Shown one piece after another: positions 5,809 to 60,334 of a stretch of DNA of 64,000 nucleotides; position 1 is the first letter of the stretch; each line of letters starts with the position of its first letter. A program made the translations under genes and the position numbers. Source of the DNA: Saccharomycopsis phalli (Eukaryota; Ascomycota; Saccharomycetes; Ascoideales; Saccharomycopsidaceae); NCBI GenBank assembly GCA_020342235.1, contig CP073218.1, forward strand, positions 1,116,001 through 1,180,000, in the 5' to 3' direction. The notes under the pieces are model-generated. The model saw only the letters and a list, made by a program, of their open reading frames with translations. It searched no databases and was not told where the DNA came from.

Positions 5809-6119
5809 TGTTGTGATGATTAAAATCCGAGACGGCATTAGCTAAACGGCATTAGCTAAATGGCATTAGCTAAACGGCATTACAATAGGCCGTAGCTAAA
5901 TGGCATTAGCTAAACGGCATTAGCTAAACGGCATTACAATATGCCGTAGCTAAATGGCATTAGTTAAGCGGCATTACGACACGCCGTAGCTTATAAGAGG
6001 ACTATAAATAAGAGGCAATGTGCCCACAATAAGTAAGTAGTTTACCTATAAGATAAATAAGTTAATACAAACAGTTTATCAAAGATGTCAGCTAAAGAAA
6101 GACTTTCCAAATTACAACA
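5809..6119 (+). repeat. 5' LTR of family B with U3 minisatellite
   Basis: 311 bp, termini TGTTG...CAACA. U3 has about a dozen 14-bp units close to GGCATTAGCTAAAC. A TATAAATA box lies near 6004. As in Ty1, the start codon of gag (6085) is within the LTR, so every solo LTR of the family ends in the same eleven gag codons. Confidence 0.93.
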
Positions 6120-9100: not shown

Positions 9101-11085
9101 TTGATAATCTTCCAAGGACACCCCAAAATGAGATCATCTATAAGTACTACGGAAAGCTGAAGATTTCACGTACTAAAATTCCGGATTCTGATCTCAGATA
9201 TCTGGAAGGTGTATCTACTTCAGCTGGTCCTCCTCCTCCTCTGCCGCCTTCGCCGCCTCCGCCTCCACCTTCTGCTTTGCCGCAAAAGCGTCTTATCCGT
9301 CACAAAGGCTCCCAACCTAAGCCCCTTTTTCCTGGTCCGCTTAGTTCTGATGAACATGATCCTACTACCCACCGTTCGTCTTCAGGGAGGGATAAGAAGC
9401 CTCGTGTCTCTGATATTGTCACAAATGGTTCTTCTAATGATGGTGTCCTGACATCTGTTAAGACGCCACTCTCAGATGACACAGATGAATCCGATATAAA
9501 TACGAATGGTGTGAATTATCCTGCTACTTGTTTCATGGCTGCTAAGCATTCTCTTGAGAATGTACCTATGACATTTGATCAAGCTGTTACTTCTGATGAT
9601 GCCTACTTATGGAAAGATGCTATTCAAAAGGAAATGGAAGCCCACTATGAGAATCAGACTTTTCTGTTAGTTCCACCTAAGCAAGGTCGTCGACCTATCA
9701 CTTGCCGTTGGGTTTTTACAATTAAGAGTGATGGTCAACACAAGGCACGACTTGTGGCTAGAGGTTTTACTCAGATTAAAGGGCTTGATTATGTGGAAAC
9801 TTTTGCGCCTGTCATTAGGTATGCTTCTATTCGAATCATGTTGTCCATTGCTGCAAGATATAGACTTACTATTCATCAGATGGATGTGAAAACGGCTTTT
9901 CTCAATGGTGATTTAAGGGAAGACCTTTACATGATTCAACCTGAAGGTTTTGTGGTCAAAGGAAAAGAAGATCATGTTCTTAAGCTTAATAAGTCGATTT
10001 ATGGTTTGAAGCAAGCTCCAATGGTTTGGAATGACAAAATCAATGAAGTGTTACATGTGATTGGTTTTAAGCAAAACTCTGCGGAGTATTGTTTGTATTC
10101 TAAGAAAAATGGGAATTTGTTTATTATGGTCGCACTTTATGTCGACGATCTTCTCATTGCTGGAAATGATCAGACTGAAATTGATAAGGTTAAAGCTCAA
10201 TTGATGCTGCACTTTAAGATGAAAGACCTAGGAGTTGCTAGCAAGTTTCTTGGAATGAACATTAGTCAAGATAAGGCCTCAATACTGCTTTCTCTTCATG
10301 ATTATGTTCACCTGATGCTAAAGGAGTATCAGATGGTAGATTGCAATCCTATCTACACACCAGCGGATCCTAATCAGGATCTAACTATAACTGATGACTC
10401 AAAGGACTGGGATGCCACAATGTATCGATCCTTGGTTGGCAAATTACTTTTTGCCGTTAATACAGTCCGGTTTGATATTGCTTATATTGTTGGTGTGTTA
10501 TCAAGATATTTACAATCTCCAAAGGAAAAGCATTGGGTTGCTGCGAAGCGTGTTCTTAGATATTTGAAGGCAACAGAGGATATGAAAATTGTTTATTCCA
10601 GAAAGGATCATGGGAATTATCTTTTGGGATATTGTGATGCTGACTGGGCTACTGATAAGACGGAAAGAAAGTCAACTACTGGTTTCATGTTTAGGTATAG
10701 CGGTGGTGCTATTACTTGGAGATCTAGAAAACAGTCGACTATTGCTTTGTCGACGGCAGAAGCCGAATACATGGCATTAACTGACGGTATTAAAGATGCT
10801 CTATGGTTACAGCAGGTGTTTGCAGAACTTGGTATCCCCTTGGAAAAATTGATAGTTCATGATGACAATGTGAGCTGCGTTAATATTGCTAAAAACCCAG
10901 TGTCACATGATCGAACTAAACATATTGATATCAAGCATCACTTTATCAGGCATCATGTGAAAAATGGCAACATTGAACTACGACACCTAACTACTGACAA
11001 GATGCTAGCTGATATGCTTACCAAGGGATTATCAAGAGAGCAATTTCAAAAACTTCGGATGCTGAGTGGTATGAGGAAATTTTAA
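6085..11085 (+). CDS. Gag-Pol polyprotein of Ty1/copia family B
   Basis: One 1666-aa frame. Gag occupies roughly residues 1-260 and ends in a Lys/Arg-rich stretch in place of the CCHC knuckle seen in family A. Protease has LDTGASGHF near residue 276. Integrase starts with HRRLGHP near 410 and has the catalytic acidic core. An acidic, proline-rich linker (PPPPLPPSPPPPPP) precedes the reverse transcriptase (YVDDLLIAG near 1351) and RNase H (YCDADWATD near 1516). The domain order is that of Ty1/copia. Gag and Pol are in a single frame, so product ratio must be set by means other than frameshifting. Element gene, not host. Confidence 0.95.
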   Translation: MSAKERLSKLQQVMMHPASVLQFPSELTLTGPETYHVWMKELEDFLFGFGVGLLQYAENGTLSIELNDVSDISSAFFIEQLDSVFGIILKASISQEIRGIIRSTHSRLTARNQFLFLQEKYGTLPLPVALTSAGILEEATRPTEFVDIRAMLQRKNLLVRQQLTKEAIIALWTLDNMMQLGVPYPVISSVIKELEHKGITTNTLLYQVLHEITGSHEYVRLNSLALLGHDSLSKKTSKPRRKGKKKEKQQPYDEEYPQGMLAYSFLGHLLLIPTFLDTGASGHFFSDIRFFQDMIPENGSILGVAGNLAIVGKGTVRISTPAGPFILHDVGYTPNGIANLISVGKASNHKLEFLFNHQGATIRSTKKMFAHRDPLSNLYTVSCEPSTVIPKQIAYKAVSSGRDIDRWHRRLGHPSASVMASLVKIHPLWKAGQSLLSCTGCITGKTVDSAPKERTTNPSQPLELVHVDLCGPFNYGSYDASRYFLTIVDGYTKWTTVVCLNKKSGCTQGIINFINTSETMFRSKGLTYCVGTLRTDNGGEFVSEELTNFLTKRGISHETTVPHHSYQNGVAERMNRTLQDKARALMLHTNVPAQLWPEAINTAVFLANCTPSRSIDFDVPYKRWYGRSFNYKFLREFGCVAYAIIPKALRQGKLDAKASPCVMIGYELQRKAYRLYDPRTNKVICAAQAIFEEDKFFYPTVSLALTSTINPPQISGVGNPKIGGIHSLPMNSQPAISMTRDELTVESELDPLDTSLIVDDNDTVSKSDAYGNASELAEDTGSELGYLRDHNTALIRTAAREIGNELVVSGSSKSNELIIADASDAEIDLTSTIDLIDVSNPNGSNKNHLVLDDPQPSREAITYPGFLHTPDEPESHADEISDSEILDPRRLEYIPGTTDLVAGSTSGSPQLQVVKYVSQSTSAESDTSLSLDNHVAQQTSLSRPATPQAQEVPYTNPIDYKNSSSSHNLFKYDRSPSDKRPIPYPRVKRYDPNYNPFCGDIPPTTFDNLPRTPQNEIIYKYYGKLKISRTKIPDSDLRYLEGVSTSAGPPPPLPPSPPPPPPSALPQKRLIRHKGSQPKPLFPGPLSSDEHDPTTHRSSSGRDKKPRVSDIVTNGSSNDGVLTSVKTPLSDDTDESDINTNGVNYPATCFMAAKHSLENVPMTFDQAVTSDDAYLWKDAIQKEMEAHYENQTFLLVPPKQGRRPITCRWVFTIKSDGQHKARLVARGFTQIKGLDYVETFAPVIRYASIRIMLSIAARYRLTIHQMDVKTAFLNGDLREDLYMIQPEGFVVKGKEDHVLKLNKSIYGLKQAPMVWNDKINEVLHVIGFKQNSAEYCLYSKKNGNLFIMVALYVDDLLIAGNDQTEIDKVKAQLMLHFKMKDLGVASKFLGMNISQDKASILLSLHDYVHLMLKEYQMVDCNPIYTPADPNQDLTITDDSKDWDATMYRSLVGKLLFAVNTVRFDIAYIVGVLSRYLQSPKEKHWVAAKRVLRYLKATEDMKIVYSRKDHGNYLLGYCDADWATDKTERKSTTGFMFRYSGGAITWRSRKQSTIALSTAEAEYMALTDGIKDALWLQQVFAELGIPLEKLIVHDDNVSCVNIAKNPVSHDRTKHIDIKHHFIRHHVKNGNIELRHLTTDKMLADMLTKGLSREQFQKLRMLSGMRKF
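6120..6127 (+). other. Primer binding site of family B
   Basis: GGTTATGA directly follows the LTR end CAACA. As in family A it is complementary to the initiator Met tRNA anticodon loop, which points to half-tRNA priming. It lies within gag codons 12-14. Confidence 0.65.
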
Positions 11086-30642: not shown

Positions 30643-33261
30643 ATGTTAAGAATTGTTGATATTTTAGCTGTGGCTGCCATAGTCGCTCAAGCCTCTGGAA
30701 ACAATATCCCAACGCCAGTCAAGGACTTTCCTGGATACTGTACTCCAACACAGTATGCTCATCCTACTGATTTCGTCAACCAGTACAAGATCACCGGCCA
30801 GTGTGGCAGTGTGTTTAACAATGTCAAGACTGTTGACCAGAATGCCTATGGTCTCTCATATCTCTTGACTGCTAGTTATGGAAACAACTTCAACGACATG
30901 GCAAACCACATTGGTACGCCGTTCCTCTCTTCAGTGGTTGCTGGTTGTGCTCAGCCAAAGAGCACTCAGTCGCCAGTGATTCCTCATGACTGCGGGTTTG
31001 CAGGTGATTGTACTTTCTTGAAGTACGATGTTTCTGCCGATTCCTTTTACAAGCATAACTTGTGTCCATACACTTCTCCAAACGGTCCAACTTTGTATGC
31101 CGACCAATCTGTGTTCTACCTGACTGGCGGAACCCAGCTCGGTGTTGTTCCTACTCCTACCAATTCTGCTTCTACTCCAACCAATGCTGCTCCTAGTTCC
31201 ACCGGAGTTGCTGCCATCGGATCCACCAGTGCCAACATCCCATCCATCACTGCTCCTGCTGTCTTCCCAACAAACACCGGTGCAATTAATTTCTTGGGCT
31301 CCAGCACCGCCTTCTTGGAAGGTATCTCCAGTGTGAACACCAACGCAGCTCAGGGTTTGGAGCAGGCTTTCTCACAGAACAACCAAGCGCTCAGCCAATT
31401 CTTGAACAACTTTGGAACTCAATTGGTCCACGGTCTCCTTGCTGGAACTGTTCAGCCATTTAGTGCTGTTACCCAGTTCTTTGGTAGCGTTTCTACCGGA
31501 TCCATCTCGATCTCTGCATACACCACTGTGTCTAACCAGGTCCAGGAGGAATGTGGTGTATTTAACAGCGGAAGTCTCGTTGGTAAGGTCACCAACTTTT
31601 ACAGCAACGTTCCTGGTCAGAGTGTGCCAACTGGATCTCCAAGTGGATCGTCTCCAAGTGGATCTCCAAGTGGCTCTTCTCCAAGTGGCTCTTCTCCAAG
31701 TGGCTCTTCTCCAAGTGGCTCTTCTCCAAGTGGCTCTTCTCCAAGTGGCTCTTCTCCAAGTGGCTCTTCTCCAAGTGGCTCTTCTCCAAGTGGCTCTCCA
31801 AATGGATCTAGTACTGTCAGCCCATCCAGTGAAACCAGTTCTCTTAGCTCTCCAAACGGATCAAACTCCACCAACTCTTCCAATGGATCTTCTCCAAGTG
31901 GATCTCCAAATGGATCTAGTACTGTCAGCTCATCCAGTGAAACCAGTTCTCTTAGCTCTCCAAACGGATCAAACTCCACAAACTCCACAAACTCCACAAG
32001 CGGATCGAACTCCTCTAGCGGATCGAACTCCTCTAGCGGATCTAACTCTTCCAGCGGATCAAACACTTCCAGCGGATCAAACACTTCCAGCGGATCAAAC
32101 TCCTCTAGCGGATCGAACTCTTCTAGCGGATCGAACTCTTCCAGCGGATCGAACTCTTCCAGCGGATCGAACTCTTCCAGCGGATCGAACTCTTCTAGCG
32201 GATCGAACTCTTCCAGCGGATCGAACTCTTCCAGCGGATCAAACTCTAGCGAATCGAACTCCTCTAGTGAATCGAACTCCTCTAGTGAATCGAACTCTTC
32301 CAGCTCTTCCAGCTCTTCCAACGGCTCGAACTCTTCAGGATGGTCTTCCAACTCTACCAACTCCTCAATCTGGTCCAATGCCATGTCCGCCTCCACCAGC
32401 ATTGGCTTGGTGACCCTCACTACTGTTATCAACCAAGAATCAACCGTTATTGACACCATAACCAGCTGCTCCAACAACGATTGTCACCCAACTACTACAT
32501 CTTCTGTCGTCACTGTCTCCAGCACTTCTGTCTATGTCACCTCAACCACCATGGTTTGGTCATCTGGCCAGAACCAAGTTGAAAGTACTGTTGGAGAAAC
32601 CACTTCGACAATCTTCACCACGGTTACTTCCTGTGACAGTAACAATGTCTGCTCCACCTTCAGCACTCCAACTGTTGTTCCTGTTGCAATTACCTCTTTG
32701 GTTCCACAAGAAGGATCTCAACTGTGGACCACCGTTGGCCTGACTACTTCCACAATCTTCACCACCACTACCTCCTGTGACAGTAACAACGTCTGCTCTA
32801 CTTTCAGTACCCCAACTGTTGTTCCTGTAGCAGTTACCTCTTTGGCCGCACAAGAAGCATCCCAACTGTGGACCACTGTTGGACTGACTACTTCTACAGT
32901 TTTCACCACCACCACCTCCTGTGACAACAACAACGTCTGCTCTACTTTCAGCACCCCAACTGTTGTCTCTGCTCCAATTACCTCTTTGGTCTCGCAAACA
33001 CAAGGTGCCGACAACGCTCAACCATCCGGATCTGGATCCGGCTCAAATGGTGCACCAGGATCTCCATCTTCAGGTGCACCAGCCCAATCTACTTTGGACG
33101 CCGAAGCTTCGACTGTCAGTGGTTCTGCTAGCGTCACCCAAGCAACTAGCCCAGCAGCAAGCAGCTTGAGTATCAGTGCTCAAATCGCCAATGGTGGTGC
33201 TTTGACCAAGATCAACCCAGTCTTTGCTTCCTTATTGGCAGCATTGGCCTTGTTTTTTTAA
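30643..33261 (+). CDS. GPI-anchored, Ser-rich cell-wall protein (adhesin-like)
   Basis: 872 aa. A secretion signal (about residues 1-19, MLRIVDILAVAAIVAQASG) precedes a Cys-containing N-terminal domain (about 25-170, with GYCTP, TGQCG, HDCGFAGDC, NLCPY) that I cannot assign. Next come GSSPS pentapeptide repeats (31,621-31,800), a second Ser/Asn block, SSGSN repeats (32,000-32,295), then about three 40-residue modules of the type TTVGLTTSTIFTT..SCDSNNVCSTF (32,590-33,000). The end is a Ser/Gly stalk and a hydrophobic tail (NPVFASLLAALALFF) fitting GPI attachment. Such architecture is typical of yeast adhesins and structural wall mannoproteins. The role is inferred from architecture, not from homology. 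Confidence 0.85.
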   Translation: MLRIVDILAVAAIVAQASGNNIPTPVKDFPGYCTPTQYAHPTDFVNQYKITGQCGSVFNNVKTVDQNAYGLSYLLTASYGNNFNDMANHIGTPFLSSVVAGCAQPKSTQSPVIPHDCGFAGDCTFLKYDVSADSFYKHNLCPYTSPNGPTLYADQSVFYLTGGTQLGVVPTPTNSASTPTNAAPSSTGVAAIGSTSANIPSITAPAVFPTNTGAINFLGSSTAFLEGISSVNTNAAQGLEQAFSQNNQALSQFLNNFGTQLVHGLLAGTVQPFSAVTQFFGSVSTGSISISAYTTVSNQVQEECGVFNSGSLVGKVTNFYSNVPGQSVPTGSPSGSSPSGSPSGSSPSGSSPSGSSPSGSSPSGSSPSGSSPSGSSPSGSSPSGSPNGSSTVSPSSETSSLSSPNGSNSTNSSNGSSPSGSPNGSSTVSSSSETSSLSSPNGSNSTNSTNSTSGSNSSSGSNSSSGSNSSSGSNTSSGSNTSSGSNSSSGSNSSSGSNSSSGSNSSSGSNSSSGSNSSSGSNSSSGSNSSSGSNSSESNSSSESNSSSESNSSSSSSSSNGSNSSGWSSNSTNSSIWSNAMSASTSIGLVTLTTVINQESTVIDTITSCSNNDCHPTTTSSVVTVSSTSVYVTSTTMVWSSGQNQVESTVGETTSTIFTTVTSCDSNNVCSTFSTPTVVPVAITSLVPQEGSQLWTTVGLTTSTIFTTTTSCDSNNVCSTFSTPTVVPVAVTSLAAQEASQLWTTVGLTTSTVFTTTTSCDNNNVCSTFSTPTVVSAPITSLVSQTQGADNAQPSGSGSGSNGAPGSPSSGAPAQSTLDAEASTVSGSASVTQATSPAASSLSISAQIANGGALTKINPVFASLLAALALFF
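31621..32295 (+). repeat. Coding minisatellites of the cell-wall gene
   Basis: Two 15-bp arrays: CTCCAAGTGGCTCTT units (GSSPS) at 31,621-31,800 and TCTAGCGGATCGAAC-like units (SSGSN) at 32,000-32,295. Between them a block of about 120 bp (SPNGSSTVS..SETSSLSS) is present twice. Unit length is a multiple of three, so copy-number change keeps the frame. Confidence 0.9.
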
Positions 33262-34568: not shown

Positions 34569-37355
34569 TCATAAATAATAAAAGCCACCTGCCACTTCCA
34601 TCAAAGCGTCCCGGTTGTATAAATCGTCAAAGTCATCTGAAGCAGATACTTCAGTGACAGTCACTGAGCTGGCATCATCCAAATATTCGTCTTGTCGCTG
34701 CAACAATTCTTCGCTACCGTCACTCTGGCCCAAGCTGCTGGACGGATCCTTACCCAAGCTGCTGGATAGATCTTGGCCTATACTGTTGACCAATGGCCCG
34801 TACTGCACAGATTTTCGAATGTCCAGCAAGAACTCCAAGTGCTTCCCAGTGGTTTCAGACAAGTACTTGTGGACATCCTTGCCTCTGCCATTCACCAAGC
34901 ACAGTAGCCCGTCTTTCCAAATGACACTCTGGGACTCCGAGTGGCATGTAAACTCAAGTAGAAGCTTTGACCCGCTGAGAACGCGGAACACCACCAGGCA
35001 GCTCGAAGTGAATGTTTCGACGCTGGTGATCTCCAGAACTGCCAATTTCACTGCCTCACACCGTCCTAGGAGATCTGGCACCGGGTGGACGTGTTTCTGG
35101 AAGTGTTTGTAGACCAAGGTGCGTTTATCTGGAGACACAAGCACGTAGACATACCCATTGTGAACAGAAAACCAGGCGCCGGTCATCAAGTTATACAGGC
35201 GGTTGGCGACTGTGTAGGAATACAAGTCCAGCTGCAACTTGGCGTTGAACAGATGGTTCTGCTTCTTGGCCTTGATGTCCAGAATGAGAAGCCTCACGGC
35301 GTCTTCGAAGTTTGTACTTGAGAGAATATGGACAAAGTTGGAATAAGATAAGTTTTTGGAGCCGACAATTGTCTTGTTGGCAGCCTCAGTGACTTTGGCC
35401 AAAAGGCAGAGAATGAAGTTGATATCGCTGTCATCGTTTTGGCATTTGGACAGCCTCCAGTACTCCACAAACATGTCCAAGTACAATAGAATCGTCGACT
35501 TGTAGTTCACGTTGACAAAGGTGTCATAGAGCTGTTTTTCCAAGTAGTGCTGGATCTCGATGTTGAGCATGCGGCACAAGAGAAGCACCACTTTCACCAC
35601 AGGAAGATTGTAAAGGGTGAGCTGCTCGTCCCTGTTCTGGGTACTGGTGGAGGTTCCGTACAACTCGCTCAACATGAGGTCGTTGTGGCGGAAAAAGTAG
35701 TCCTTCACAAGCAGCAGAAACACGGGCCGCAGGTCGAGCACCTCCAACACTGAGATACAAGACAACAAGTCGTTCCATGAGAACTCAGTGGTGATGTACC
35801 CAATGTAATCGCCAGAAGAACCAAAGGTCGTCTCCAACACCCGTGGGTGGCAGTACAACTGCTTGCCCTGTTCTTTAACATGGTACTTTGCTGCAATCTG
35901 CCGTACTAGTGCTGCAAAGTCATTCAAGAGAATGACGTCGCTGTTGGCACTGAAGTACTTGATACAAGCGTCGTAGTCGCATTTGCTCAGGGCATTGAAC
36001 TCCTCGTAGCTGATGATACGGCTGGAGATGTACTGTTTGAAGTTGTAGATGTTGATACTCAAGTCGACGTCCTCGGCCAACAGAGACGCCAAGGTCTCCT
36101 GGTACTTTTCGCCAACCAAAAAGTTCAACTTCAGGACAATTTTCCAGCCGGTTTTATAGTGATGCCGGTTGGCCGCTTGGCGAAGAAGCACCGACAAAAA
36201 GCGGGTATGTGCGAGCGACTTGGGTAAAGGAGCAAGGCTGGTTGGAAGCGAGAACGTCGCTGTGACTGGGGTATGGGTTTGCGAGGCCATGGCCATGTAC
36301 AAGATTTTCCAAATGACCAAGTCGAGGATCTTTGGGTGGGCGTCGATGATGTCAAAGAACCTCTGGCTAAAGAGCTTGGTGAGGATATCAAGTACAATCT
36401 CATCGAGCACCGTGGTGTGTTCAAGTGCGGCTGTGTCTGAGATGTTGATGGTGTAACCTTTCACCATTGGGTTGAAATGGGCGTTGTTTTTCAAAAAGTA
36501 GTCGACTAGGAGCGAAAAGACCTTGGGCTCGGTGATACTGGAGACATCAGTCACCAGGATGAGGCGATCGTAGGTCTTGAGACATCGCATTAGCGTGGAG
36601 AAGTTGGACCCTGTGGTGATAACCTGCGGCTTGGCGAAAAGCGGCGATACTGGAGTGGAAAGCGGCGAGGAAGCGACAGAGGAGCAAGAAGAGGCGCTGG
36701 ACGGGGTCTTGGGCACCAGGGAGTCCAGGCGGATGGAGATGGAGAGCTGGAATGGGTTTTTGAAGTTGGCTTTGCGAAAGGGTCTTGGCAAAAGCGACTT
36801 CTTGACCTTCACCGGGGTGTCCAAGCCGACAATGTGGACTGGAGAAGGTAAGTTGATTTTCAGAGGGGTAGAGTCCAATTCCGAGGGCATTGTTTCCAGG
36901 TCCCGTTTGTGCCTGGTGAATTCGCGATCCATTTGAACCGGCTCCATAAGGCCTATGCTAGGTTTTCTTAGGCTGAGGAGGGATGACTTGTGTTTCAACT
37001 GGCCAATACGGAGCAATCCGGGCAGTTTGTGGCCGTCGATGAACAGCTTTTGGCTCTCGGCCACCAGTCTGCGGCCATCAAGAACCAGTTTTTGGCTCTC
37101 GGCCACCAGCTTGCGACTCTCGGCCACCAGCCTATGCTCAACCAACACCTTTTTGGACATCAGATCCTGTAAAGAACTGGCCATGAAATCCATATCATGG
37201 AAGTAAACAAGCAACTCGTTCAAAAACCCAAGGTATTTCGATGCCAACAACACACTCAAACCGTCCTTGTTTCCTCGGGTCACTCTCGATCGTTCAAACC
37301 CACCCAAACTCTTGTCGATAGAGTCCAAGTCCAGAAGTATTTGCGGGAACACCAT
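34569..37355 (-). CDS. ELMO-like protein, diverged paralog of LMO1
   Basis: 928 aa. The C-terminal third resembles the other ELMO-family protein of this window: TGAWFSVHN near residue 720 parallels RGSWFLAHS, then VSPDKRTLVYKHF parallels VSPNRQYIMYKEF, and IWKDGLLCLVN parallels VWCDGINLLLN at the end of the PH-like domain. The middle is helical, ARM-like. The N-terminus has a tandem LVAESxKL run (about residues 70-105) and a long Ser/Pro-rich, probably disordered segment not in LMO1. ELMO proteins partner DOCK exchange factors (Dck1 in yeast) to activate Rho5/Rac. Function here is inferred. It is much longer than S. cerevisiae Lmo1 (665 aa) and its tail ends in an acidic Ser-rich stretch. Confidence 0.7.
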   Translation of the reverse strand: MVFPQILLDLDSIDKSLGGFERSRVTRGNKDGLSVLLASKYLGFLNELLVYFHDMDFMASSLQDLMSKKVLVEHRLVAESRKLVAESQKLVLDGRRLVAESQKLFIDGHKLPGLLRIGQLKHKSSLLSLRKPSIGLMEPVQMDREFTRHKRDLETMPSELDSTPLKINLPSPVHIVGLDTPVKVKKSLLPRPFRKANFKNPFQLSISIRLDSLVPKTPSSASSCSSVASSPLSTPVSPLFAKPQVITTGSNFSTLMRCLKTYDRLILVTDVSSITEPKVFSLLVDYFLKNNAHFNPMVKGYTINISDTAALEHTTVLDEIVLDILTKLFSQRFFDIIDAHPKILDLVIWKILYMAMASQTHTPVTATFSLPTSLAPLPKSLAHTRFLSVLLRQAANRHHYKTGWKIVLKLNFLVGEKYQETLASLLAEDVDLSINIYNFKQYISSRIISYEEFNALSKCDYDACIKYFSANSDVILLNDFAALVRQIAAKYHVKEQGKQLYCHPRVLETTFGSSGDYIGYITTEFSWNDLLSCISVLEVLDLRPVFLLLVKDYFFRHNDLMLSELYGTSTSTQNRDEQLTLYNLPVVKVVLLLCRMLNIEIQHYLEKQLYDTFVNVNYKSTILLYLDMFVEYWRLSKCQNDDSDINFILCLLAKVTEAANKTIVGSKNLSYSNFVHILSSTNFEDAVRLLILDIKAKKQNHLFNAKLQLDLYSYTVANRLYNLMTGAWFSVHNGYVYVLVSPDKRTLVYKHFQKHVHPVPDLLGRCEAVKLAVLEITSVETFTSSCLVVFRVLSGSKLLLEFTCHSESQSVIWKDGLLCLVNGRGKDVHKYLSETTGKHLEFLLDIRKSVQYGPLVNSIGQDLSSSLGKDPSSSLGQSDGSEELLQRQDEYLDDASSVTVTEVSASDDFDDLYNRDALMEVAGGFYYL

Positions 37356-40300: not shown

Positions 40301-41508
40301 GCCCACTAAGGTAAGTTGTAATATTGAAATGAATTTTCATGAGTTAGCAATCAACAAACGTGAACCAACAAGTTCATGTAAACTGGGTCGCATATACATT
40401 GCCTAGCCCGGCTGAGGAAGACTTGATTCACCTTTTAAATTTAATGGGTACCATCACGATTTGACCGCATGTTGATGACCAACCGGCAATGTGTTATTAT
40501 TAGAGAATACATTGAAGTAGAACGCCTCCAATTCAATGAGTCTTGACGTGCGGCCATGAAAAGTGTGCCCAATTGTTCATTAGCTCAATCAAAAGAGCAC
40601 AATTGTGGAGTAAAGCGAGAGACACTTAGAACTTGATAAGCCAACTTGTTGGAAAACTTCCAACATAACGTACCATCAAGGCACAACTCGATCCAAATTG
40701 CAACCAATGCTACGTTGTGATAATTCCAACCATCCCAGACTTGTACTCACACTCGGAGACATTGAACCCGTAGAACAATAGGTAAGGTTTAATCATCCTG
40801 ACCCAAGTTCATTGCCTCTTAGAGATGAAAAGCGGCGCACAAACCCTTTGGATTTTCCTTTCTTGAGAACATGCCTCCAAGTATACGCATCTACGTGTGT
40901 TATCGATATTTGAAAACTCAAAAGCAACAAATCTCATTTATAATTAAATATCTGAGCAAAATTGTAACAATGACAAACACTAATAATGACAATGGCAGGA
41001 TCAATTGACAAATCCTGGGGGTTTTGTTACGCAGTGTTGTTCCTTTAAACAAAGTTTTGAGGTTGAAAACCACCAGTAAGTCACATATAAAAGAGAAGCT
41101 ATTCTACGTTGGAATGTACTCAGGGAACGACAGAACATGCAGAACGTGCAGTTGTAACGTAATGTGAAACTCATGACCATAGGAACTTATGAGGAGATAT
41201 CCATCCTATAAAGGGGAGATATTTTAGAAGTTAAGAAGAGTAAGTAAAATCGATTCAATCATCACTACCGTTCCAATTATTCAATTACGAAGGAACAAAA
41301 CTTATCTATAGTTAAGTAAATATCTGAGCATGCGTTTGTAACGATGTCACACTCTATGGAAGAAGAAATTGACATTGACACAAAGGAAAGTCCAACACCC
41401 AGCATTTGTGTCTATAATTTGCTGTTTGTGACATTGGCTTACTATATAAGAAAGTGCACCTTTGCGTATTGAGTAACCTAACTAGCGCTTCAAATCAGAC
41501 AGACCAAA
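37356..41508. other. 4.15-kb stretch without a supported gene
   Basis: No reading frame with protein-like sequence. Several small tandem arrays: ACAAAGAACNAANGT-like units at 38,737-38,822, AGGAGAAGCATATAAT-like at 39,490-39,565, GATGGAAAGCCAATG-like at 39,815-39,870, and AGAGTACAAGTCCT/AATACAAGTTC at 39,880-39,960. 41,155-41,345 has a TGTAACGTAATG...CTATAAAGGGG order suggestive of an LTR but without ends I can defend. Confidence 0.6.
41443..41449 (+). promoter_or_regulatory. TATA box of the 47-aa-repeat gene
   Basis: TATATAA, 60 bp upstream of the ATG at 41509, in an otherwise mixed context. Spacing is normal for a yeast TATA promoter and supports expression from this ATG. Confidence 0.5.
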
Positions 41509-43578
41509 ATGGACTACTTTACCATAATGACAGTTATGTTGCTTAAAATCCGTGAAATGATTCATTTTTTTCAAATTACTCATTTCATTCAACTTACTCG
41601 CAAAATCCAGCTTGTTTTATCAGAATCACTCAAAAACTGGGTGTTTTATCTCACCAACTCACAGTTCTTTAAAGCCTTGGACACCCAAAGAACTACGTTT
41701 CTCAACTCCGAATGGACCAGCTATTGGACAAATAAGATTCATCAATATGTCTTCAAGACTTTCGCAGCACTCCAAGGATGTGTGTTGCTCAACTCCGAAT
41801 GGACCAGCTATTGGACAAATGTGATTGATCAATGTGTCTTTAAGGCTTTCGCAACACTCCAAGGTTGCATGATTTGTCTCACTAACTCACAGATCTTTAA
41901 GTTCTTGGACACCCAAAGAACTACGTTGCTCAACTTTGAATGGACTAGCTATTGGACAAATATGATTCATCAATGTGGTTTCAAGACTTTAGAAACACTC
42001 CAAGGATGGATGCTTTATCTCACTAACTCACAGATCTTTAAGTTCTTGGACACCCAAAGAACTACGTTGCTCAACTTTGAATGGATCAGTTATTGGACAA
42101 ATATGATTCATCAATGTGGTTTCAAGACTTCTGAAACACTCAAAGGATGTATGCTTTATCTCACTAACTCACAGATCTTTAAGTTCTTGGACACCCAAAG
42201 AACTACGTTGCTCAACTTTGAATGGACTAGCTATTGGACAAATGAGATTCATCAATTTGGTTTCAAGACTTCTGAAACACTCAAAGGATGTATGATTTAT
42301 CTCACTAACTCACAGATCTTTAAGTTCTTGGACACCCAAAGAACTACGTTGCTCAACTTTGAATGGACTAGCTATTGGACAAATATGATTCATCAATGTG
42401 GTTTCAAGACTTCTGAAACACTCAAAGGATGTATGCTTTATCTCACTAACTCACAGATCTTTAAGTTCTTGGACACCCAAAGAACTACGTTGCTCAACTT
42501 TGAATGGACTAGCTATTGGACAAATGAGATTCATCAATTTGTTTTCAAGACTTCTGAAACACTCAAAGGATGTATGATTTATCTCACTAACTCACAGATC
42601 TTTAAGTTCTTGGACACCCAAAGAACTACGTTGCTCAACTTTGAATGGACTAGCTATTGGACAAATGAGATTCATCAATTTGGTTTCAAGACTTCTGAAA
42701 CACTCAAAGGATGTATGATTTATCTCACTAACTCACAGATCTTTAAGTTCTTGGACACCCAAAGAACTACGTTGCTCAACTTTGAATGGACTAGCTATTG
42801 GACAAATATGATTCATCAATGTGGTTTCAAGACTTCTGAAACACTCAAAGGATGTATGCTTTATCTCACTAACTCACAGATCTTTAAGTTCTTGGACACC
42901 CAAAGAACTACGTTGCTTAACTTTGAATGGATCAGTTATTGGACAAATGAGATTCATCAATGTCTTTACAAGAAATTTGATACACTCTACTCCGAAATCT
43001 ATAGATTTGGGAAAAATCGTTGGTGGGAAAACGTTCAGAGCATTGAGTTTGAGGGGCTTGTGATTCATGAGAATTTTGTGGCTATGATGATTGGAATTCT
43101 CATTGGCATATTATTGACACTTGCCTTGAGTCCAAGTATTGGTTCTTTCTACACCTTGGTTAGGCCAAATGTCCAGGATGTCAAAATGACTGATTCACAA
43201 GAAGAGTTTGTGTCAAATCAGGTTGTGCAAAGCCCATATCCAGAAGAATACAATGAAGCCACTAATTTATTGCAACAGTACAAGATTAATAAAGCTAGAA
43301 AGATTAAACAGCTTGCCAAACAACTTGTCGAGATGCCGGTAGAAGCAAAGTCATTTGAGAAACAAAATGTCATGAGAAATCTAGACAACGCACAGATTGA
43401 AACTATGGCTGAGACCGTTGGATCCAAGGCCAAGAAATCAGGTGCAAAGAGACGATATCGAAAGAAAAACTGGGAAAAGAAGCGGAAATTTGAAATGGGC
43501 AAAGGGTCTAGTGGTGAAATTGTCAGTGTTTTCCCTAGCAATATCACAATTCTTTACTACTCTGGCAAGTCTTTATAA
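41509..43578 (+). CDS. Membrane protein made of ten 47-aa tandem repeats, unknown function
   Basis: 689 aa, not recognised. After a 48-residue N-terminus come ten repeats (about residues 49-500), consensus start YLTNSQIFKFLDTQRTT, then LLNFEWTSYWTN, [M/E]IHQ[C/F]GFKTSETLKGC. The first two are diverged and the second is short; the last loses its C-terminal half. A single membrane segment follows (about 523-545, MMIGILIGILLTLALS), then an acidic-to-basic tail with a Lys/Arg cluster (KKSGAKRRYRKKNWEKKRK, about 640-660). No clear signal peptide. Repeats 3-10 are almost identical at DNA level. The unit could form an amphipathic helix-turn-helix that lies on membranes; that is inference. It is bracketed by long gene-free DNA. 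Confidence 0.8.
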   Translation: MDYFTIMTVMLLKIREMIHFFQITHFIQLTRKIQLVLSESLKNWVFYLTNSQFFKALDTQRTTFLNSEWTSYWTNKIHQYVFKTFAALQGCVLLNSEWTSYWTNVIDQCVFKAFATLQGCMICLTNSQIFKFLDTQRTTLLNFEWTSYWTNMIHQCGFKTLETLQGWMLYLTNSQIFKFLDTQRTTLLNFEWISYWTNMIHQCGFKTSETLKGCMLYLTNSQIFKFLDTQRTTLLNFEWTSYWTNEIHQFGFKTSETLKGCMIYLTNSQIFKFLDTQRTTLLNFEWTSYWTNMIHQCGFKTSETLKGCMLYLTNSQIFKFLDTQRTTLLNFEWTSYWTNEIHQFVFKTSETLKGCMIYLTNSQIFKFLDTQRTTLLNFEWTSYWTNEIHQFGFKTSETLKGCMIYLTNSQIFKFLDTQRTTLLNFEWTSYWTNMIHQCGFKTSETLKGCMLYLTNSQIFKFLDTQRTTLLNFEWISYWTNEIHQCLYKKFDTLYSEIYRFGKNRWWENVQSIEFEGLVIHENFVAMMIGILIGILLTLALSPSIGSFYTLVRPNVQDVKMTDSQEEFVSNQVVQSPYPEEYNEATNLLQQYKINKARKIKQLAKQLVEMPVEAKSFEKQNVMRNLDNAQIETMAETVGSKAKKSGAKRRYRKKNWEKKRKFEMGKGSSGEIVSVFPSNITILYYSGKSL
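41653..42990 (+). repeat. 141-bp coding tandem repeats
   Basis: Period of 141 bp, for example ACTCACAGATCTTTAAGTTC recurring at 141-bp steps from about 41,883 to 42,870. Two alternating sub-types (ATGATTCATCAATGTGG and GAGATTCATCAATTTGG) show block duplication. An early copy is shortened by 57 bp, in frame. Confidence 0.93.
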
Positions 43579-43886
43579 ATTTCCGGCTGTGATTTTCCTT
43601 CTAATTAATTCGATTGGCTTGTGCTTGACGATGTTGAGAATTCTCGACTGCTTGACGCTATTTCATGTTTGAACGAGGCTCTCCAATATGAATAGGTCAC
43701 TAGACGTGTTATGCTAATTTGATTATATCTGATTTGATTATATTTGATTATATTTGATTTGATTATATTTGGTTATATTTGATTATATTTGATTATATTT
43801 GATTATATTTGGTTATATTTGATTATATTTGATTATATTTGATTATATTTTATTTACTTTATATTTACATTTTATATTTCTTATAT

Positions 43887-43980
43887 TGTAGTATGATAAC
43901 TAGAATACGAGTTGGTAAAATAGCTAAAATATATTCGCTCGACTATTCAAAGAAAATTCTAACTATTTATAATTAAAACG
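43887..43980 (+). repeat. Dispersed LTR-like repeat, copy 1
   Basis: TGTAGTATGATAACTAGAAT, then the core GGTAAAATAGCTAAAATAT, CGACTATTC and a TATTTATAAT box. Three other copies are at about 44,425-44,509 (minus), 51,087-51,175 (plus) and 54,960-55,155 (minus). The TG start and TATA order suggest an LTR, but no ends with a target duplication were found. Confidence 0.5.
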
Positions 43981-44424
43981 AGCAATTGTTTAGCGGAAGA
44001 CGAAGTTACACCAGTGGGGGCACTTTACTAGTGGAGAAGCTAGAGCCAGACAAGAAATAACAACTTAAAGGAGAAAGCATTGGTCCTCTAAAGGGAATCC
44101 GGGGACTGCCTGAGCTACAAAAATCAAGGATCAGCGTTCTTCTTCATTACATATTTACATTATTTCATCTCTTTTGTATTGAAAAAGGTTACATTTTTTT
44201 CCTGAAGCTACACTAATCCGTTAGTTTCTCACATGTTTCTTGGCTATATACCATTTCCGGATCTTTCTGGTAATTGTGCTAGCTTTTATCAATTGTGCTA
44301 GTTTTTACCAATTGTGCTCATCTTTTGGCAATTGTGCTTCTTCCTGAAACTACCATCTTGGAAGATATGAATTCCAATAGGTCTTAGTTCTTCTCTGGCA
44401 AAAGGTTAATTATCTTATTTCAAG

Positions 44425-44509
44425 TATAAATAGCCAGACTTTTTTCTGAGTAGTCGTGCGAATATATTTTAGCTATTTTACCGACTCGCATCTTAGTTTC
44501 TTTATTACA
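44425..44509 (-). repeat. Dispersed LTR-like repeat, copy 2
   Basis: Minus strand: TGTAATAAAGAAACTAAGAT, core GGTAAAATAGCTAAAATAT, CGACTACTC and TATTTATACTT. It is inverted relative to copy 1, 440 bp away. Confidence 0.5.
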
Positions 44510-45306
44510 TTGTATATGCTGTACAGTTGTGTCTGGTGCCTCTGGATGTTGCCAAGTGAAAATATACCTTTATACCACCATAATTCCTGAGCCAAATGAG
44601 CCAAATATTATTAAATCTCGACATCTGGCTGACCAGGCTAGTCATGTGACTGAATTGTAACTAGAGCAAGGTCAGTATATAGCACGTGAATTAGGTATGA
44701 TCTACAACAGATATAATGTCCTCATGAAGAATACCGGGACTCTTTAGATTTAAGGAGCTTAGTGATTAATATGAGAGCAAGGCTTTTTCAAGTTTGAAAC
44801 CAGTGAGAACAAGTTTGACTATGTATCTGGGTATTTCCAAGGAACAAGATTACTGGAGAGTATTGTAGAGCAACTACGATGAATAATGTTTTGAGGTTGT
44901 AAACATCAAGAGAAGTAGGTGATTATTTCTAGGTAAAGAATTTACTATAAAGGCGATATGTGTGGTTAGTAGATGTAACTGGAGGAGAATAGCGTTCTGA
45001 TTATGTGATACTGCAGACAATGATGACATGAATTGTAGAATTCATGTTGAATTAAATGGAACAAGGCCAAAGTTTTGTCAATTCGAAGGTGTTTTAAATA
45101 CAGTATTGTGGCGAATTACAGTTGGTGATGGAAGATGATGGTGATAGAAAGAAGAAAGATAAAGAAGAAAGATAAAGAAGAAAGATAAAGAAGAAAGATA
45201 AGGAGGAAAGATAAAGAAAGAAAAAAGACAGTGAATCAACATCAACTTTACGAGTACAGTCCAAATAAGTCACGTTACTAAACTAATTCAGAACCTCTTG
45301 AGCTCA

Positions 45307-47853: not shown

Positions 47854-49929
47854 ATGATATTTGGAGCCCTGCCCTGGGTATCGTGCCGCAGAAATTTGAG
47901 CCCGTACCAGGCTAGGTTGTTCACTTTAGGTTTCGTCAAGCTTGCAATCTTGTTGGAAATGGCAGAGGACTCGCTTGCAATAAATCATTACTTGAATAAG
48001 TTTCTGGAGAAACAGGAGCCGTTTCTAACGATTGCAGTGGGAAACCGGTTTTTATCGTCGCTTCGGTCGAGCATTCTCAACAAGAACAACAAGCAGGAAC
48101 GGGTGAATCTGGTGGTTGTGTTGGCGAAAATGGTTGGCTTTTTGAAGCGGAACGACGAGACGTTGGCGATCTTTGACGAGCCGTTGTTTCGCGAGCTTCT
48201 TCGCATTGCGATTCAAAAGCCGATCGAGCTCACTGGCAACAGCGTGTTCAGAATCATCAACTTCTTCATTGTGGAGCCCCACCCGATGATTTCGCGGCTC
48301 TACGACTGTGTGTACCAGAGCCTGCGGTTCATTGAGATATTTCTCCCGAGGTTGAACGCCGACTCCGAGACGGTGACGTTGACGTTTGAGTTTTTGAGCT
48401 CATTGTTGTACTCTCTGGCGGACTATCCTGCCAACAAACTAGCGGTGATCATCGGGCGGATGCGCCAGGTGAGTTTGACCGAGCATTGTGAGGAGATTAT
48501 GGCCAGCAAGTCGATGCTGGTGGACCAGCTCCAGAAGCTCAAGACACGGTACAATATGGGTCTCTTTAGGCTTATCAAGCGGGGAGCGCGGATCTTCTTG
48601 CAGCCAGAGTCCGCCAGCGACATGCAGCTCATCCACGACCTTCTAGAGCTTCTCAAGACGTTTTTCAGCAGCGGGGCCAGTGACGTGGAAATCTACGCCA
48701 AGGCAGGGTTCACTCGGGACCCGACGCACTACATTGCGAGCCAGTACCCGTTGTCGATTGTGTGCAACATCACGGTGTTTCTCAGTCACGCAAACGACAA
48801 GTTCCGCCGCCGGTACTACGAGCAGCTTCTTCTCACGTCCAAGAACTACTGTTTCCCCGTCGGCAAGGTTGCGCTCGAGGTGCTGGCTTTCCTCAGTGAC
48901 CACGTCTTTGTCGAAAAGGAGTTCCAGGCCTTGGTGCGCTTCTTGCCGTTTTACGACTCCATCTTCTACGGCAGCATGCTTCTCTGTGTCGACTTCTGGG
49001 AGCAGTCCGGCTGCCAGTCGTCGGACCCACTGGACATCACTGTGATCATCAACCTCCTCCAGGCAACGTTCAGCCACTTGGTCAAGACAATCACCCCAGA
49101 AACGTCTGGCCCCGAGCTCCGGGAAATGCTTCTGCAGGTGTCCTATGCCAAGGCCCGCGAGGTCCAGCTCGCACAGATCCACAAAAGACGCCAGGAGTGG
49201 TACGGAGACGACATCAACAAGTTCGACAACCAGCTTGAGATCGAGGTCGCCAACTTTGTCCGGGAAGAGCGCATCCTCCTGCTCATTCGCGGCTCCTGGT
49301 TCCTCGCCCACTCCCCGCGATTCCAATACACACACGGCAACCCCATGGGCTCTGCGCAAAACGTGCCCACCACCCGCCACGTGCGGCCTTCTCAGTACTA
49401 CTTTTGCGTGTCGCCCAATCGTCAGTACATCATGTACAAGGAGTTCGATTCCAAGGAATCCGTGGCCCCAGTGCTTGACAGGCTGACCGCAGCCACCATC
49501 CCGCTATCAACGGTGCGCGATATCACCGTCACCGAGGTGGGTCGGAGCTGGAACACGGGTACCCACATGCGGCACGTCAATCTCTTTGTGAGCATCGAGT
49601 CGCGCAACTCGTTGCTGAAGATTGCGTTCTGGAACAAGAACGGCGGCGAGATTGTCGGCTTCTACACCGACTCGCGAGACTTGGCATACGTGTGGTGCGA
49701 CGGTATCAACTTGCTTCTTAACAAGCCGATTTCCAAGGTCAGCGAATATACAAAGGGCCAGATTGAAAAGTTATTTGATGTGCGCCGCGCCGCACAGTTT
49801 TCCACGCTAAGATTGCACCAGGAAGAGGGAAGAAAGGGTCGGAAGGGCGATCTCAATGAGGACGAGGAGGAGGGATTGTATGACTACAGCCAGTTGATTA
49901 AAGTCACGGGTAACTATTATTATGATTAG
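47854..49929 (+). CDS. LMO1: ELMO/CED-12 homolog
   Basis: 691 aa from the ATG at 47854, or 656 aa from the ATG at 47959 (MAEDSLAINHYL), which is closer to S. cerevisiae Lmo1 (665 aa) and may be the true start. An ARM-like helical N-terminal half (LNKFLEKQEPFLTIAVGNRFL onward) is followed by a C-terminal PH-like domain (GSWFLAHS, QYYFCVSPNRQYIMYK, VWCDGINLLLN) of the ELMO type, and an acidic tail ending in NYYYD. In yeast Lmo1 works with Dck1 as exchange factor for Rho5 in stress and mitophagy signalling; the same role is inferred. A diverged paralog lies at 34569-37355. Head-to-head with VCX1. Confidence 0.8.
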   Translation: MIFGALPWVSCRRNLSPYQARLFTLGFVKLAILLEMAEDSLAINHYLNKFLEKQEPFLTIAVGNRFLSSLRSSILNKNNKQERVNLVVVLAKMVGFLKRNDETLAIFDEPLFRELLRIAIQKPIELTGNSVFRIINFFIVEPHPMISRLYDCVYQSLRFIEIFLPRLNADSETVTLTFEFLSSLLYSLADYPANKLAVIIGRMRQVSLTEHCEEIMASKSMLVDQLQKLKTRYNMGLFRLIKRGARIFLQPESASDMQLIHDLLELLKTFFSSGASDVEIYAKAGFTRDPTHYIASQYPLSIVCNITVFLSHANDKFRRRYYEQLLLTSKNYCFPVGKVALEVLAFLSDHVFVEKEFQALVRFLPFYDSIFYGSMLLCVDFWEQSGCQSSDPLDITVIINLLQATFSHLVKTITPETSGPELREMLLQVSYAKAREVQLAQIHKRRQEWYGDDINKFDNQLEIEVANFVREERILLLIRGSWFLAHSPRFQYTHGNPMGSAQNVPTTRHVRPSQYYFCVSPNRQYIMYKEFDSKESVAPVLDRLTAATIPLSTVRDITVTEVGRSWNTGTHMRHVNLFVSIESRNSLLKIAFWNKNGGEIVGFYTDSRDLAYVWCDGINLLLNKPISKVSEYTKGQIEKLFDVRRAAQFSTLRLHQEEGRKGRKGDLNEDEEEGLYDYSQLIKVTGNYYYD

Positions 49930-53392: not shown

Positions 53393-53905
53393 TTACATCA
53401 CGGCCTCTCCAACAAAAATCTCACTCACCTCTACACAATTATACCCTTCCCGCTCATTATTGGCAGAGTTCCGACGGTCATGGTGCAATATCTTGTACCC
53501 ATCCTCAATAATTAACTGCTTGCGGTCCGTATCCTTGTCCTTATCATGCTCATGAGCACGTACTTGCTGATACTCGCTGGCAAACAAGTCCTGGTTGAAA
53601 CTAAACCCCTGACTTTCTTTCAAAGAAAGCGAAAACGACAACATCCGCGGATACCGCTTCAGCTTGCTATCCAAGTTTTTGTCCTGGTCAATCTCCTCTT
53701 GCACGTCTTCATCGTCAATAACATCGTCATACATATAACTAGATGACTCATAAACTGAATGTTTTTCGTCGCTCAACATTGCCAGGGACAAAAATTTGAC
53801 TGCTTCTGCCCAAGAGGACTCATAAAACTGGTCTGCCTGCTTCATTTGTAAAACAAAGACACTGCCCAATTTCAAATCGGTATATAACCTCATCACTCCA
53901 TGCAT
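53393..53905 (-). CDS. Small acidic protein, unknown function
   Basis: 170 aa from ATGCATGGAGTG at 53905. An in-frame ATG at 53983 would add 26 residues, but that segment overlaps the CACGTG cluster and looks like promoter. The sequence has a basic-neutral N-terminus, an acidic middle (DDVIDDEDVQEEIDQD), the phrase LSFSLSLKESQGFSFNQDLF, and a polar, His/Asp-rich end. I do not recognise a domain. Size, composition and position next to RAD24 made me think of small ribonucleotide-reductase inhibitors (Dif1/Spd1), but no signature proves it. Divergent from ATP17. Confidence 0.55.
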   Translation of the reverse strand: MHGVMRLYTDLKLGSVFVLQMKQADQFYESSWAEAVKFLSLAMLSDEKHSVYESSSYMYDDVIDDEDVQEEIDQDKNLDSKLKRYPRMLSFSLSLKESQGFSFNQDLFASEYQQVRAHEHDKDKDTDRKQLIIEDGYKILHHDRRNSANNEREGYNCVEVSEIFVGEAVM

Positions 53906-54422: not shown

Positions 54423-55718
54423 GCATAATATATACTTGTGAAAAATGTAGGGATAGTGATCGATGTGGATATAATATGGATTGATGTGGATATAATATGG
54501 ATAGATGTGGATATAATATGGATAGATGTGGATGATGATATGGATGAACAATGTGAATGTGGATTGAATAGTATTACCGATGAAAATCATTGAAATTCGT
54601 GCCATGAACTTTTTAGCCTGAAATTCCAAACAAAGATGATAGGATTTGCCTTATTTTCTCTTGGCTTGCCATGCTTGGAAGTTGGAATGGCTCAAGTGAT
54701 TTGTTCATGACTTTGATTGGTTGCATACCCAGATTAACATCGGTTGTGGAATTGCTTGACTAGTAACAATGTCATGCCAATTTGATGATTGGATATTTGA
54801 TTTGGCTGCTCTTTCCATGCTATCTTTTAATTATTATCCTGCTATCATTTTGACCATTCTATCTATCATTCTATCTATCATTCTATCTATTTATCCTGTC
54901 TCATTCTGTCATTCTATCTACTATTCTATCTATTTATCATGTCTCATTCTATCATTCCACCTACTATAAAAAGAGAAGTTTTGTTTCTCGACACCATTTT
55001 AACTGATCAAATCTTATATCACGAAGACATTGTCTAGCCCAGTTTATTCCCTCGTACAGTGAATAAGTCACCTTTTAAGTATATTCAGACTTTGAATAGT
55101 TAAGTGATTATATTTTAGCAATCTTACCAACACGTATTCTAGTTACTATATTACATGATGCAATATTTATGTTTGGCGGAGCAATAGAGAATCATTATAT
55201 GTTAAAACGCACAATCAATGACATTAACAATCAATCAATGGCATTATCAGTAAATGGCCTTAATCATCAACAATTCAAGTTTGAAGGAGTAACTAAACAA
55301 GTTGTATAACATCAGAGGACTACTTAAATAGTGCCCTACTTAGTCGTAGACGATAAGCAATCTCTCGAGGAACCCTGGATAAATATCTAAACAATTACCT
55401 GTGCTGAAATGGACCTTAATTCATATCAACGAGTCTTGATCTCGAGGCATTAAACATGTCACAATGTCTGATTATATTCATTTTCTGGCTGCATTATCAT
55501 GACCACTGTACCCAGAAATTTAATTAAGTAATATTTCAGCTTTATTTGCCCATATAAAATATTCATTGAAGGTATTATCACACAAATCATTCGATGCCGT
55601 TGAAGCGTGGGTCTGACATTAGCCTCGAAATCGCAACAGCATGAGGCATGAATAATCACCAAGGCACATCATGTGATTAATATATATATCAACAATAGCC
55701 ACTCACTTCTAATCATCA
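54423..55718. other. Intergenic with small tandem repeats and LTR-like copy
   Basis: 54,466-54,545: GATGTGGATATAATATG units, about 20 bp each. 54,850-54,965: TCTATCATTCTATC tracts. 54,960-55,155 on the minus strand is the longest copy of the dispersed repeat (TGTAATATAGTAACTAGAAT, core GGTAAGATTGCTAAAATAT, CTTTTTATAGTAGG box). No gene. Confidence 0.6.
54960..55155 (-). repeat. Dispersed LTR-like repeat, copy 4
   Basis: Starts TGTAATATAGTAACTAG on the minus strand and has the family core and a TATA-like box about 180 bp in. It shows the element extends well beyond the 90-bp core. Confidence 0.5.
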
Positions 55719-56983
55719 ATGAACACTTTGGCCATCTTTCACATCCTTTTAGCCATGCGCTTTATGGAGCATGGCTTTGCGTGTCCAGTCGATGGTACTC
55801 TTGTTGCTCGGGACAATGTCATTGAAAGATTGCTCAATTCCGGGGGAATGACAGGTCTAAATGCTCGGTATTTCACTCTGTATAAAGAATATCAACGTCA
55901 TTGTAACTCTGAACAGACCAGAGACGTGGTTCTTGCATACAAGAATCTGTCAAAAAGGGAAAATAGTATCATTAAAGGATTCGGGGAGAATCCATATATG
56001 TCTTTTCCCATGAGACTGCCATTTTTTCGTCCTGTAAACCTCAATGGTTTATTTCCGGACCAAGCTCTAGTATTTTTTTTTTATTATTATTTTATTTTTT
56101 AAGGCTATAGCTATACTTTGGCTCCAGAGAGATTGATATTTCACCGTCTAAGACTAGGGACGGCGCCGCTATATATGTTGCTCAGAGAAAACCCTTCAAG
56201 TGGGTAGAAAAACTCCAAGCGGGATTTGGTAGTTGTGCTGGTAATTTGTGCATGGGACAGGCTGTGAGGTTTCGCCGCGGGTACTAACTCGGTAGCCTGC
56301 CGTAGGGTTGTCACTAAGCATCGAATTGAACCCGTGACGGTGAAGCTCTAGTATGGGATGCTAACTGGATCAAGGCGCATTGGTACGATCCTAAGAATAC
56401 ACCATTCTTGGAGACTCTGCTTCATATAGACGATTTCACATCATTGAAACCAGACTGTTATGATGAAAGAAGCAGGTGGAAGGATAATATAACGTATCAG
56501 CAGTTGTACCATTTAAGACATGACATGACCGAGGAACAGACGGCGATACCTAACAATTTAATTGTCCGAGGGAGCGTCCATGGGGTTCGGAGACAAGCTG
56601 TCGCTGACTACCTTAGAGCCGTCAAAATCCACTTTATAGTTATGGGAAAACTTTTTAACCAAGCAGATTTCCACAAGGCATTTAAACCAGGCAAGGTTTA
56701 CATCAAGGAAGAGTTTAAAAACAGAATGAAACCCTTGGCAAATTCACAGTTTAATGGAAAAGTCATAAAGGACAAAAATGGCAAGTCTCTTTGTATGATT
56801 GATGAAATTTTGAGGAACTACAGAATCGCTGGTACTGGAACAATCATGAGTGGTGAGACTTTACCCTTCTCGGAACCGGTGAATGAAAAAACCCAGCTAA
56901 TGATAAGTAGATGTATGGGTGCTCTTACGATGCTGACTGACATGAGTTACTGCTTCGCAAACAGATTTGGAGAATGTGAGTGA
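55719..56983 (+). pseudogene. Secreted-protein gene of unknown function, interrupted by a retroposon
   Basis: The ATG at 55719 opens with a hydrophobic segment (MNTLAIFHILLAMRF) followed by FACPVDGT, fitting a secretion signal with cleavage near residue 21. 115 codons on, the frame meets an insertion (56073-56342) flanked by an 11-bp duplication; host sequence resumes in the same frame and stays open to 56983, with NLIVRGSVHGVRRQAV, KVYIKEEFKNRMKP and GECE at the end. So the gene was intact until the insertion, which is probably recent. I do not recognise the protein. As it stands the first part would end in a short Phe/Tyr tail read from the insert. Confidence 0.7.
56073..56342 (-). mobile_element. 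LINE tail or SINE insertion with 11-bp target duplication
   Basis: Duplications AAGCTCTAGTA at 56062-56072 and 56343-56353. On the minus strand the insert ends with AGCGGCGCCGTCCC, GACGGTGAAATATCAATCTC, TATAGCTATAG and an A-rich/ATT tail, all shared with the LINE 3' UTR at 20225-20450. Its 5' part (CACGGGTTCAATTCGATGC) is not clearly LINE and contains a rough Pol III B-box, so a SINE that borrowed the LINE tail is possible. Confidence 0.75.

Positions 56984-57751: not shown

Positions 57752-60334
<2,583 letters not shown>

Follow-up and report, generated by a model that had tools for sequence, protein, structure and literature searches.

An open reading frame with in-frame 47-residue repeats and a predicted membrane segment in a 64-kb window of Saccharomycopsis phalli

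The 689-codon open reading frame (ORF) described here could be a real CUG-Ser yeast gene that evolves fast and is probably lineage-restricted, and whose product would be a single-pass membrane tether or scaffold with unstable repeats. We give this reading about an even chance of being correct. The ORF is located in a window of 64,000 nucleotides, by which we mean the whole stretch of S. phalli DNA that was analysed. Copies of a 47-residue block make up the front two thirds of the protein, and these are followed by a strongly hydrophobic segment and a long C-terminal tail (Table 1). A role as a tether is proposed from this architecture alone.

Table 1. Positions in the window of the ORF, its parts and a TATA-like element upstream
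Feature	Position	Strand	Basis or remark
ORF	41509..43578	+	689 codons plus TAA
TATA-like element TATATAA	41443..41449	+	pattern scan; ends 60 bases 5′ of the start codon
N-terminal segment, aa 1-46	41509..41646	+	hydrophobic, with charges scattered through it; inspection shows no clear signal peptide
Unit 1 (aa 47-93)	41647..41787	+	old copy, diverged from units 2-8 at 20-22 of 141 bases
Partial unit, 29 aa (aa 94-122)	41788..41874	+	lacks the 18-residue YLTNSQ..TTL stretch
Units 2-9 (aa 123-498)	41875..43002	+	eight 141-bp units
Membrane segment, aa 521-541 (ENFVAMMIGILIGILLTLALS)	43069..43131	+	Kyte-Doolittle; helix in low-confidence AlphaFold2 model
C-terminal tail, aa 555-689	43171..43575	+	charge and codon analysis
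Basic patch, aa 636-664	43414..43500	+	NLS-like KRRYRKKNWEKKRK at 647-660; weakly similar to the eS8 N terminus

The frame is uninterrupted from its ATG to its TAA over exactly the interval tabulated, and an in-frame stop codon is located upstream at 41479-41481. The TATA-like sequence may serve as a promoter element of the ORF. A pattern scan of positions 40801-44200 found no GTATGT, and GTAAGT occurs in this interval only upstream of the ORF (at 41076 and 41240), and therefore the ORF carries no splice donor of these two types. The branch-point-like heptamer CACTAAC is present eight times inside the ORF (41880-42873) with a spacing of 141 bp, and each occurrence is followed by TCACAG. Soon after the stop codon the decamer ATTTGATTAT is repeated in tandem about 13 times (43732-43854). 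In addition, a pair of 97-nt inverted repeats with 79% complementarity is found just 3′ of the ORF (43882-43978 and 44418-44514), with a partial copy of 66 bp at 55090-55155. The inverted repeats and the partial copy are perhaps remnants of LTRs or transposons.

The genetic code of the window was judged from the CDC48 gene (57752-60328, minus strand), which matches at an E-value of 0 the Cdc48 of PDB 8dar, presumably the S. cerevisiae protein. The sole CTG of this gene, at codon 344, reads as leucine by the standard code and aligns with a serine (MAGESE-S-NLR). On the strength of this one codon, the window appears to come from a CUG-Ser yeast. Translation of the 689-codon ORF is identical under tables 1 and 12 because it lacks in-frame CTG codons: the triplet occurs 11 times over the three forward frames of the ORF region and 0 times in the coding frame.

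Tandem Repeats Finder reports a 141-bp array at 41784-42963 (8.4 copies, 95% match, score 2066) and, ahead of it and overlapping it, an 87-bp array at 41697-41864 (1.9 copies). The original prediction counted ten 47-residue repeats. Nine of these are full units, but the tenth is a partial unit of 29 residues, and the count is therefore ten only if the partial unit is included. The full unit (141 bp), the partial one (87 bp), and the 54 bp by which they differ are each a multiple of three in length. Compared with each of the remaining eight full units, unit 9 shows 21 to 34 base differences out of 141, most of which fall in its 3′ part. A half-repeat within the 47-residue unit was considered and rejected, with best ungapped scores of 17 and 16 compared to shuffled means of 17.3. 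A gapped alignment scored 49 versus 18.3 for shuffled sequences (0 of 2000 shuffles as high), and this score was set aside because it derives largely from an LNSEWTS stretch common to neighbouring units. The N terminus was also rejected as a diverged unit, since its match is not significant once the overlapping letters of unit 1 are removed.

The array is young: unit 4 has exactly the DNA sequence of unit 7, and unit 5 that of unit 8. When the array is compared with itself three units (423 bp) further on, the longest stretch of identity is 340 bp. These features point to a recent duplication of a three-unit block. Furthermore, positions 30, 34, and 47 of the unit covary in all seven of units 2-8, where they read either M-C-L or E-F-I, a pattern expected if blocks of several units were recently duplicated through unequal exchange. 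Units 2-8 vary as if neutral, and no purifying selection is visible among them (pooled pN 0.036 and pS 0.029, from 21 non-independent pairs). Some older copies lean towards silent changes, although the picture is mixed. When unit 1 and the partial unit are taken together, 24 of 37 differences change an amino acid, compared to 29.0 (sd 2.3) in a neutral simulation (P 0.029). The partial unit alone departs from the simulation to a similar extent (P 0.027), whereas unit 1 alone does not differ from it (P 0.29). The pN/pS ratio of unit 9 is 0.20 over its first 33 codons and 0.81 over the whole unit, and that of unit 2 against the consensus is 1.88.

Hydropathy analysis agrees with the original prediction of a single-pass protein with one membrane segment. 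Only one segment, about 20 residues long, is strongly hydrophobic, and its Kyte-Doolittle mean over 19 residues reaches 2.58 in the window that starts at aa 523 (aa 523-541). A second, weak peak (mean 1.28) covers aa 105-124, in and just past the partial unit. The strongly basic tail that had been predicted is likewise present, and the final 60 residues have a net charge of +10. In tail-anchored proteins the anchor lies no more than about 40 residues from the C terminus. In this protein the segment ends near aa 541 of 689, and the proposal that the protein is tail-anchored is unsupported because 148 residues follow the membrane segment.

The N-terminal 46 residues have a net charge of +2, with acidic residues at positions 2 and 16 of the protein. 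Helical amphipathicity in 18-residue windows of this segment is uneven, with a moment of up to 0.49 at aa 28-45 that drops to 0.04 at aa 11-29. Neither end of the protein contains a 19-residue window above 1.2 in a scan that can miss a short signal peptide, and this result speaks against both a signal peptide and a GPI signal. The 15 residues before the membrane segment include three acidic residues and no Lys or Arg, while the 15 residues after it include one Arg and no acidic residue. Application of the positive-inside rule to these flanking charges would place the basic tail on the cytosolic or nuclear side. However, the topology is uncertain because an N-terminal part of approximately 520 residues would be hard to translocate without a clear signal peptide.

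In keeping with the original prediction that the protein carries no recognised domain, searches of Pfam, NCBIfam, and PHROGs returned no credible match, and no credible named family was found. The Pfam family DUF6469 (PF20073) reaches an E-value of 7.3e-9 against the whole protein (36.2 bits, cut-off 27), with 0 stretches that pass on their own. The same family is not listed at E 10 in scans of three pieces of the protein, including two units alone. Membership in DUF6469 was therefore rejected as a case in which weak matches to near-identical units had added up. The best NCBIfam matches fall far short of their cut-offs, and HpsJ_fam was also rejected, with an E-value of 0.0011 and 19 bits versus a cut-off of 60 for the C-terminal 210 residues. 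PHROGs yielded one match at E 0.25 and none for the C-terminal part. Among solved structures, the best E-value was 8.4 with the whole protein as query, the unit profile retrieved nothing at E 10, and the tail retrieved FlhF (E 0.11) followed by eS8 (E 0.16). Non-fungal collections gave two pattern matches in IMG/VR viral contigs and ten in bacterial and archaeal genomes, none of which were confirmed, and no match at E 1 in phage records. Such negatives from viral, prokaryotic, and phage collections carry little weight for a yeast gene. A search of the literature on this kind of gene or repeat found nothing among the papers listed, which is no proof of absence from print.

The original prediction was that the repeats could fold as helical hairpins on a membrane, and structure prediction is divided on this point and gives no clear support. 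AlphaFold2 run on the single full sequence places strands in the repeats (mean pLDDT 39.5, pTM 0.40), and the pLDDT of the repeats in this model is about 38-58. In contrast, a run restricted to three units, for which an alignment of 7 rows was assembled from the units of this window, produces helices, with four short helices per unit (pLDDT 42.5, pTM 0.27). Confidence is low in both cases, and neither a beta-solenoid nor a helical-hairpin repeat emerges with confident strands or helices in each unit. One study reports that AlphaFold2, when given perfect repeats, favours beta-solenoids that are unrealistic (PMC11795689). Hydrophobicity along the array has its strongest periodicity peaks near 138, 92, and 168.5 degrees, with no leading peak at the 100 degrees of an alpha helix, and the mean Chou-Fasman propensities for helix (1.00) and strand (1.09) hardly separate. 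The linker that follows the membrane segment contains predicted helices in a low-confidence AlphaFold2 model.

Past the array the frame stays open for another 191 codons, for which the chance probability estimated from base composition is 5e-7. The ORF frame also has the best codon score of the six frames in all five segments, in a comparison where the segments overlap one another and frames that contain stops are penalised. Taken together with the contrary results given below, this suggests that the ORF probably does encode a protein, whose constraint is weak or uneven. The open stretch and the frame comparison weigh against the alternative that the frame is open but non-functional, a chance or decaying ORF inflated by a minisatellite, and that its protein does nothing. 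This alternative, which we regard as unlikely, would fit the neutral-like variation among units 2-8 and in unit 1. It would also fit the codon score of the ORF (-0.15), which is below those of all seven conserved genes in the window, whose leave-one-out scores range from 0.10 to 0.43. Third-position GC content is likewise below that of all seven genes (0.441 versus 0.576 to 0.788). Moreover, the length of the ORF is mostly not independent evidence, because a 141-bp unit that is open once tends to stay open in its copies. The ORF adjoins a 4-kb stretch that contains no ATG-started ORF of at least 150 residues, as well as repeats that resemble LTR remnants. A clear membrane segment and tail, the lean towards silent changes in unit 1 and the partial unit taken together, and a TATA element just upstream also weigh against a non-functional frame.

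Two more specific locations were considered as alternatives. The NLS-like pattern KRRYRKKNWEKKRK starts 105 residues past the membrane segment, and signal and linker together might pull the segment through the nuclear pore, as for Heh1 and Heh2, to give an inner-nuclear-membrane protein whose repeats would either occupy the perinuclear space or point into the nucleus. For Heh2, one study describes a signal plus linker as both required and sufficient (PMC4695851), but the order in the Heh2 reporter given there is signal-linker-membrane, which is reversed in the ORF protein. Basic patches occur widely and have many kinds of binding partner, the intervening linker has predicted helices, albeit at low confidence, and the LEM and MAN domains of Heh1/Heh2 are absent among the Pfam matches listed up to E 10. 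We consider this location quite unlikely. A mitochondrial membrane protein seems improbable. In that case the N terminus, with a start perhaps at Met7 or Met10, would be the targeting sequence and the later segment a stop-transfer sequence. This proposal draws on the hydrophobic N-terminal segment with its scattered basic residues and net positive charge, and on the amphipathic windows found there, but it is countered by the two acidic residues and by the near loss of amphipathicity at aa 11-29. Similarly improbable is the scaffold first envisaged, which would be tail-anchored with its repeats lying on the membrane as helical hairpins. The helices of the three-unit model favour this arrangement, whereas the long stretch after the membrane segment, the strands of the whole-protein run, the low confidence of the helical model itself, and the lack of a leading helical periodicity do not.

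The reading that we prefer, a single-pass tether or scaffold, can be laid out as a simple mechanism. Unequal exchange or recombination among the 141-bp copies would cause the array to grow and would determine how many units it holds. The segment at aa 521-541 would anchor the protein in an internal membrane, with the basic tail presumably facing the cytosol or nucleus by the positive-inside rule. The repeat region might then act as a spacer or as a multivalent binding arm, whose reach and valency would scale with unit number, and the protein would thereby function as a tether or scaffold. Should the protein be produced, it would count as an orphan among repeat proteins, separate from the usual cell-wall class, and the near identity of its units would allow a direct test of copy number against tether function. 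For now, the ORF simply adds to the unexplained yeast genes that contain a minisatellite. The analysis also exposes two traps, namely a family E-value of 7e-9 produced by the summing of repeats and opposite folds obtained from two AlphaFold2 runs on one repeat.

Elsewhere in the window, positions 1-28000 hold a cluster of Ty1/copia-type elements with a Ty5-like Gag. An intact ORF of 1666 residues is present in this cluster at 6085-11085, and the other elements are broken. Many repeat copies in the region resemble LTR remnants, and four tRNA genes are located between 18 and 24.5 kb. In the CUG-Ser yeast S. stipitis, centromeres were identified by means of large clusters of the Tps5 retrotransposon, roughly 20 to 40 kb in size (PMC8546629). 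By analogy with these Tps5-cluster centromeres, positions 1-28000 could be a centromere region. The ORF at 30643-33261 (plus strand) encodes an 872-residue protein with no Pfam match at E 0.01, and its N-terminal 338 residues give none above the cut-off. Because of its Ser/Gly/Asn-rich repeats and its ends, which are hydrophobic by inspection, this protein is a candidate for an adhesin or a cell-wall protein with a GPI anchor. The 689-codon ORF is flanked on both sides by genes whose products have a PH_12 domain towards the C terminus (34569-37355, minus strand, and 47854-49929, plus strand), and these two proteins are perhaps ELMO/Lmo1-like. ORFs of 170 residues (53393-53905, minus strand) and 152 residues (56525-56983, plus strand) have no credible Pfam match. 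Among the real genes of the window, the 689-codon ORF had been singled out as the least explained. This description is fair, but the ORF is not unique in this respect, given that those at 30643, 53393, and 56525 also lack a Pfam match at E 0.01.

Comparison with known systems yields no sign that the ORF is a new kind of system or that it is unusual beyond its repeats and membrane segment. Ribosomal protein eS8 binds rRNA, and about 26 residues of the tail can be aligned to GAKR and KKRKFELGR in the N terminus of eS8. The raw score of this alignment is 51, compared to 30.3 (sd 5.1) for the shuffled patch, with about 3 in 3000 shuffles as high. The best E-value of eS8 is only 0.16 against the tail among 177,635 sequences, where three of the 14 sequences listed are eS8, and 8.7 against the whole protein. 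The remainder of eS8 is absent from the ORF protein. We treat the match as a lead only because it was picked after the fact from a large search. It would be very improbable, but conceivable from these parts, that the protein is a membrane-anchored tether for RNA or ribosomes, with an eS8-like tail on the cytosolic or nuclear side, one membrane segment, and an arm of changeable length and unseen fold whose reach strains would tune by copy number.

The ORF protein resembles Heh1 and Heh2 in its combination of a membrane segment, a linker, and a basic NLS-like patch, and differs from them in its N-terminal repeat array. Proteins of the HPF1/FLO type have secretion signals and Ser/Thr-rich repeats. 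Unlike these, the ORF protein has no clear signal peptide, its repeats are rich in aromatic residues, and its membrane segment is followed by a long tail. HPF1 is the gene of a cell-wall protein (PMC7263189). At the level of DNA, yeast genes of the HPF1/FLO type, like the ORF, contain in-frame tandem repeats within the coding region that are near-identical in sequence, and in both the number of repeats is expected to change by recombination.
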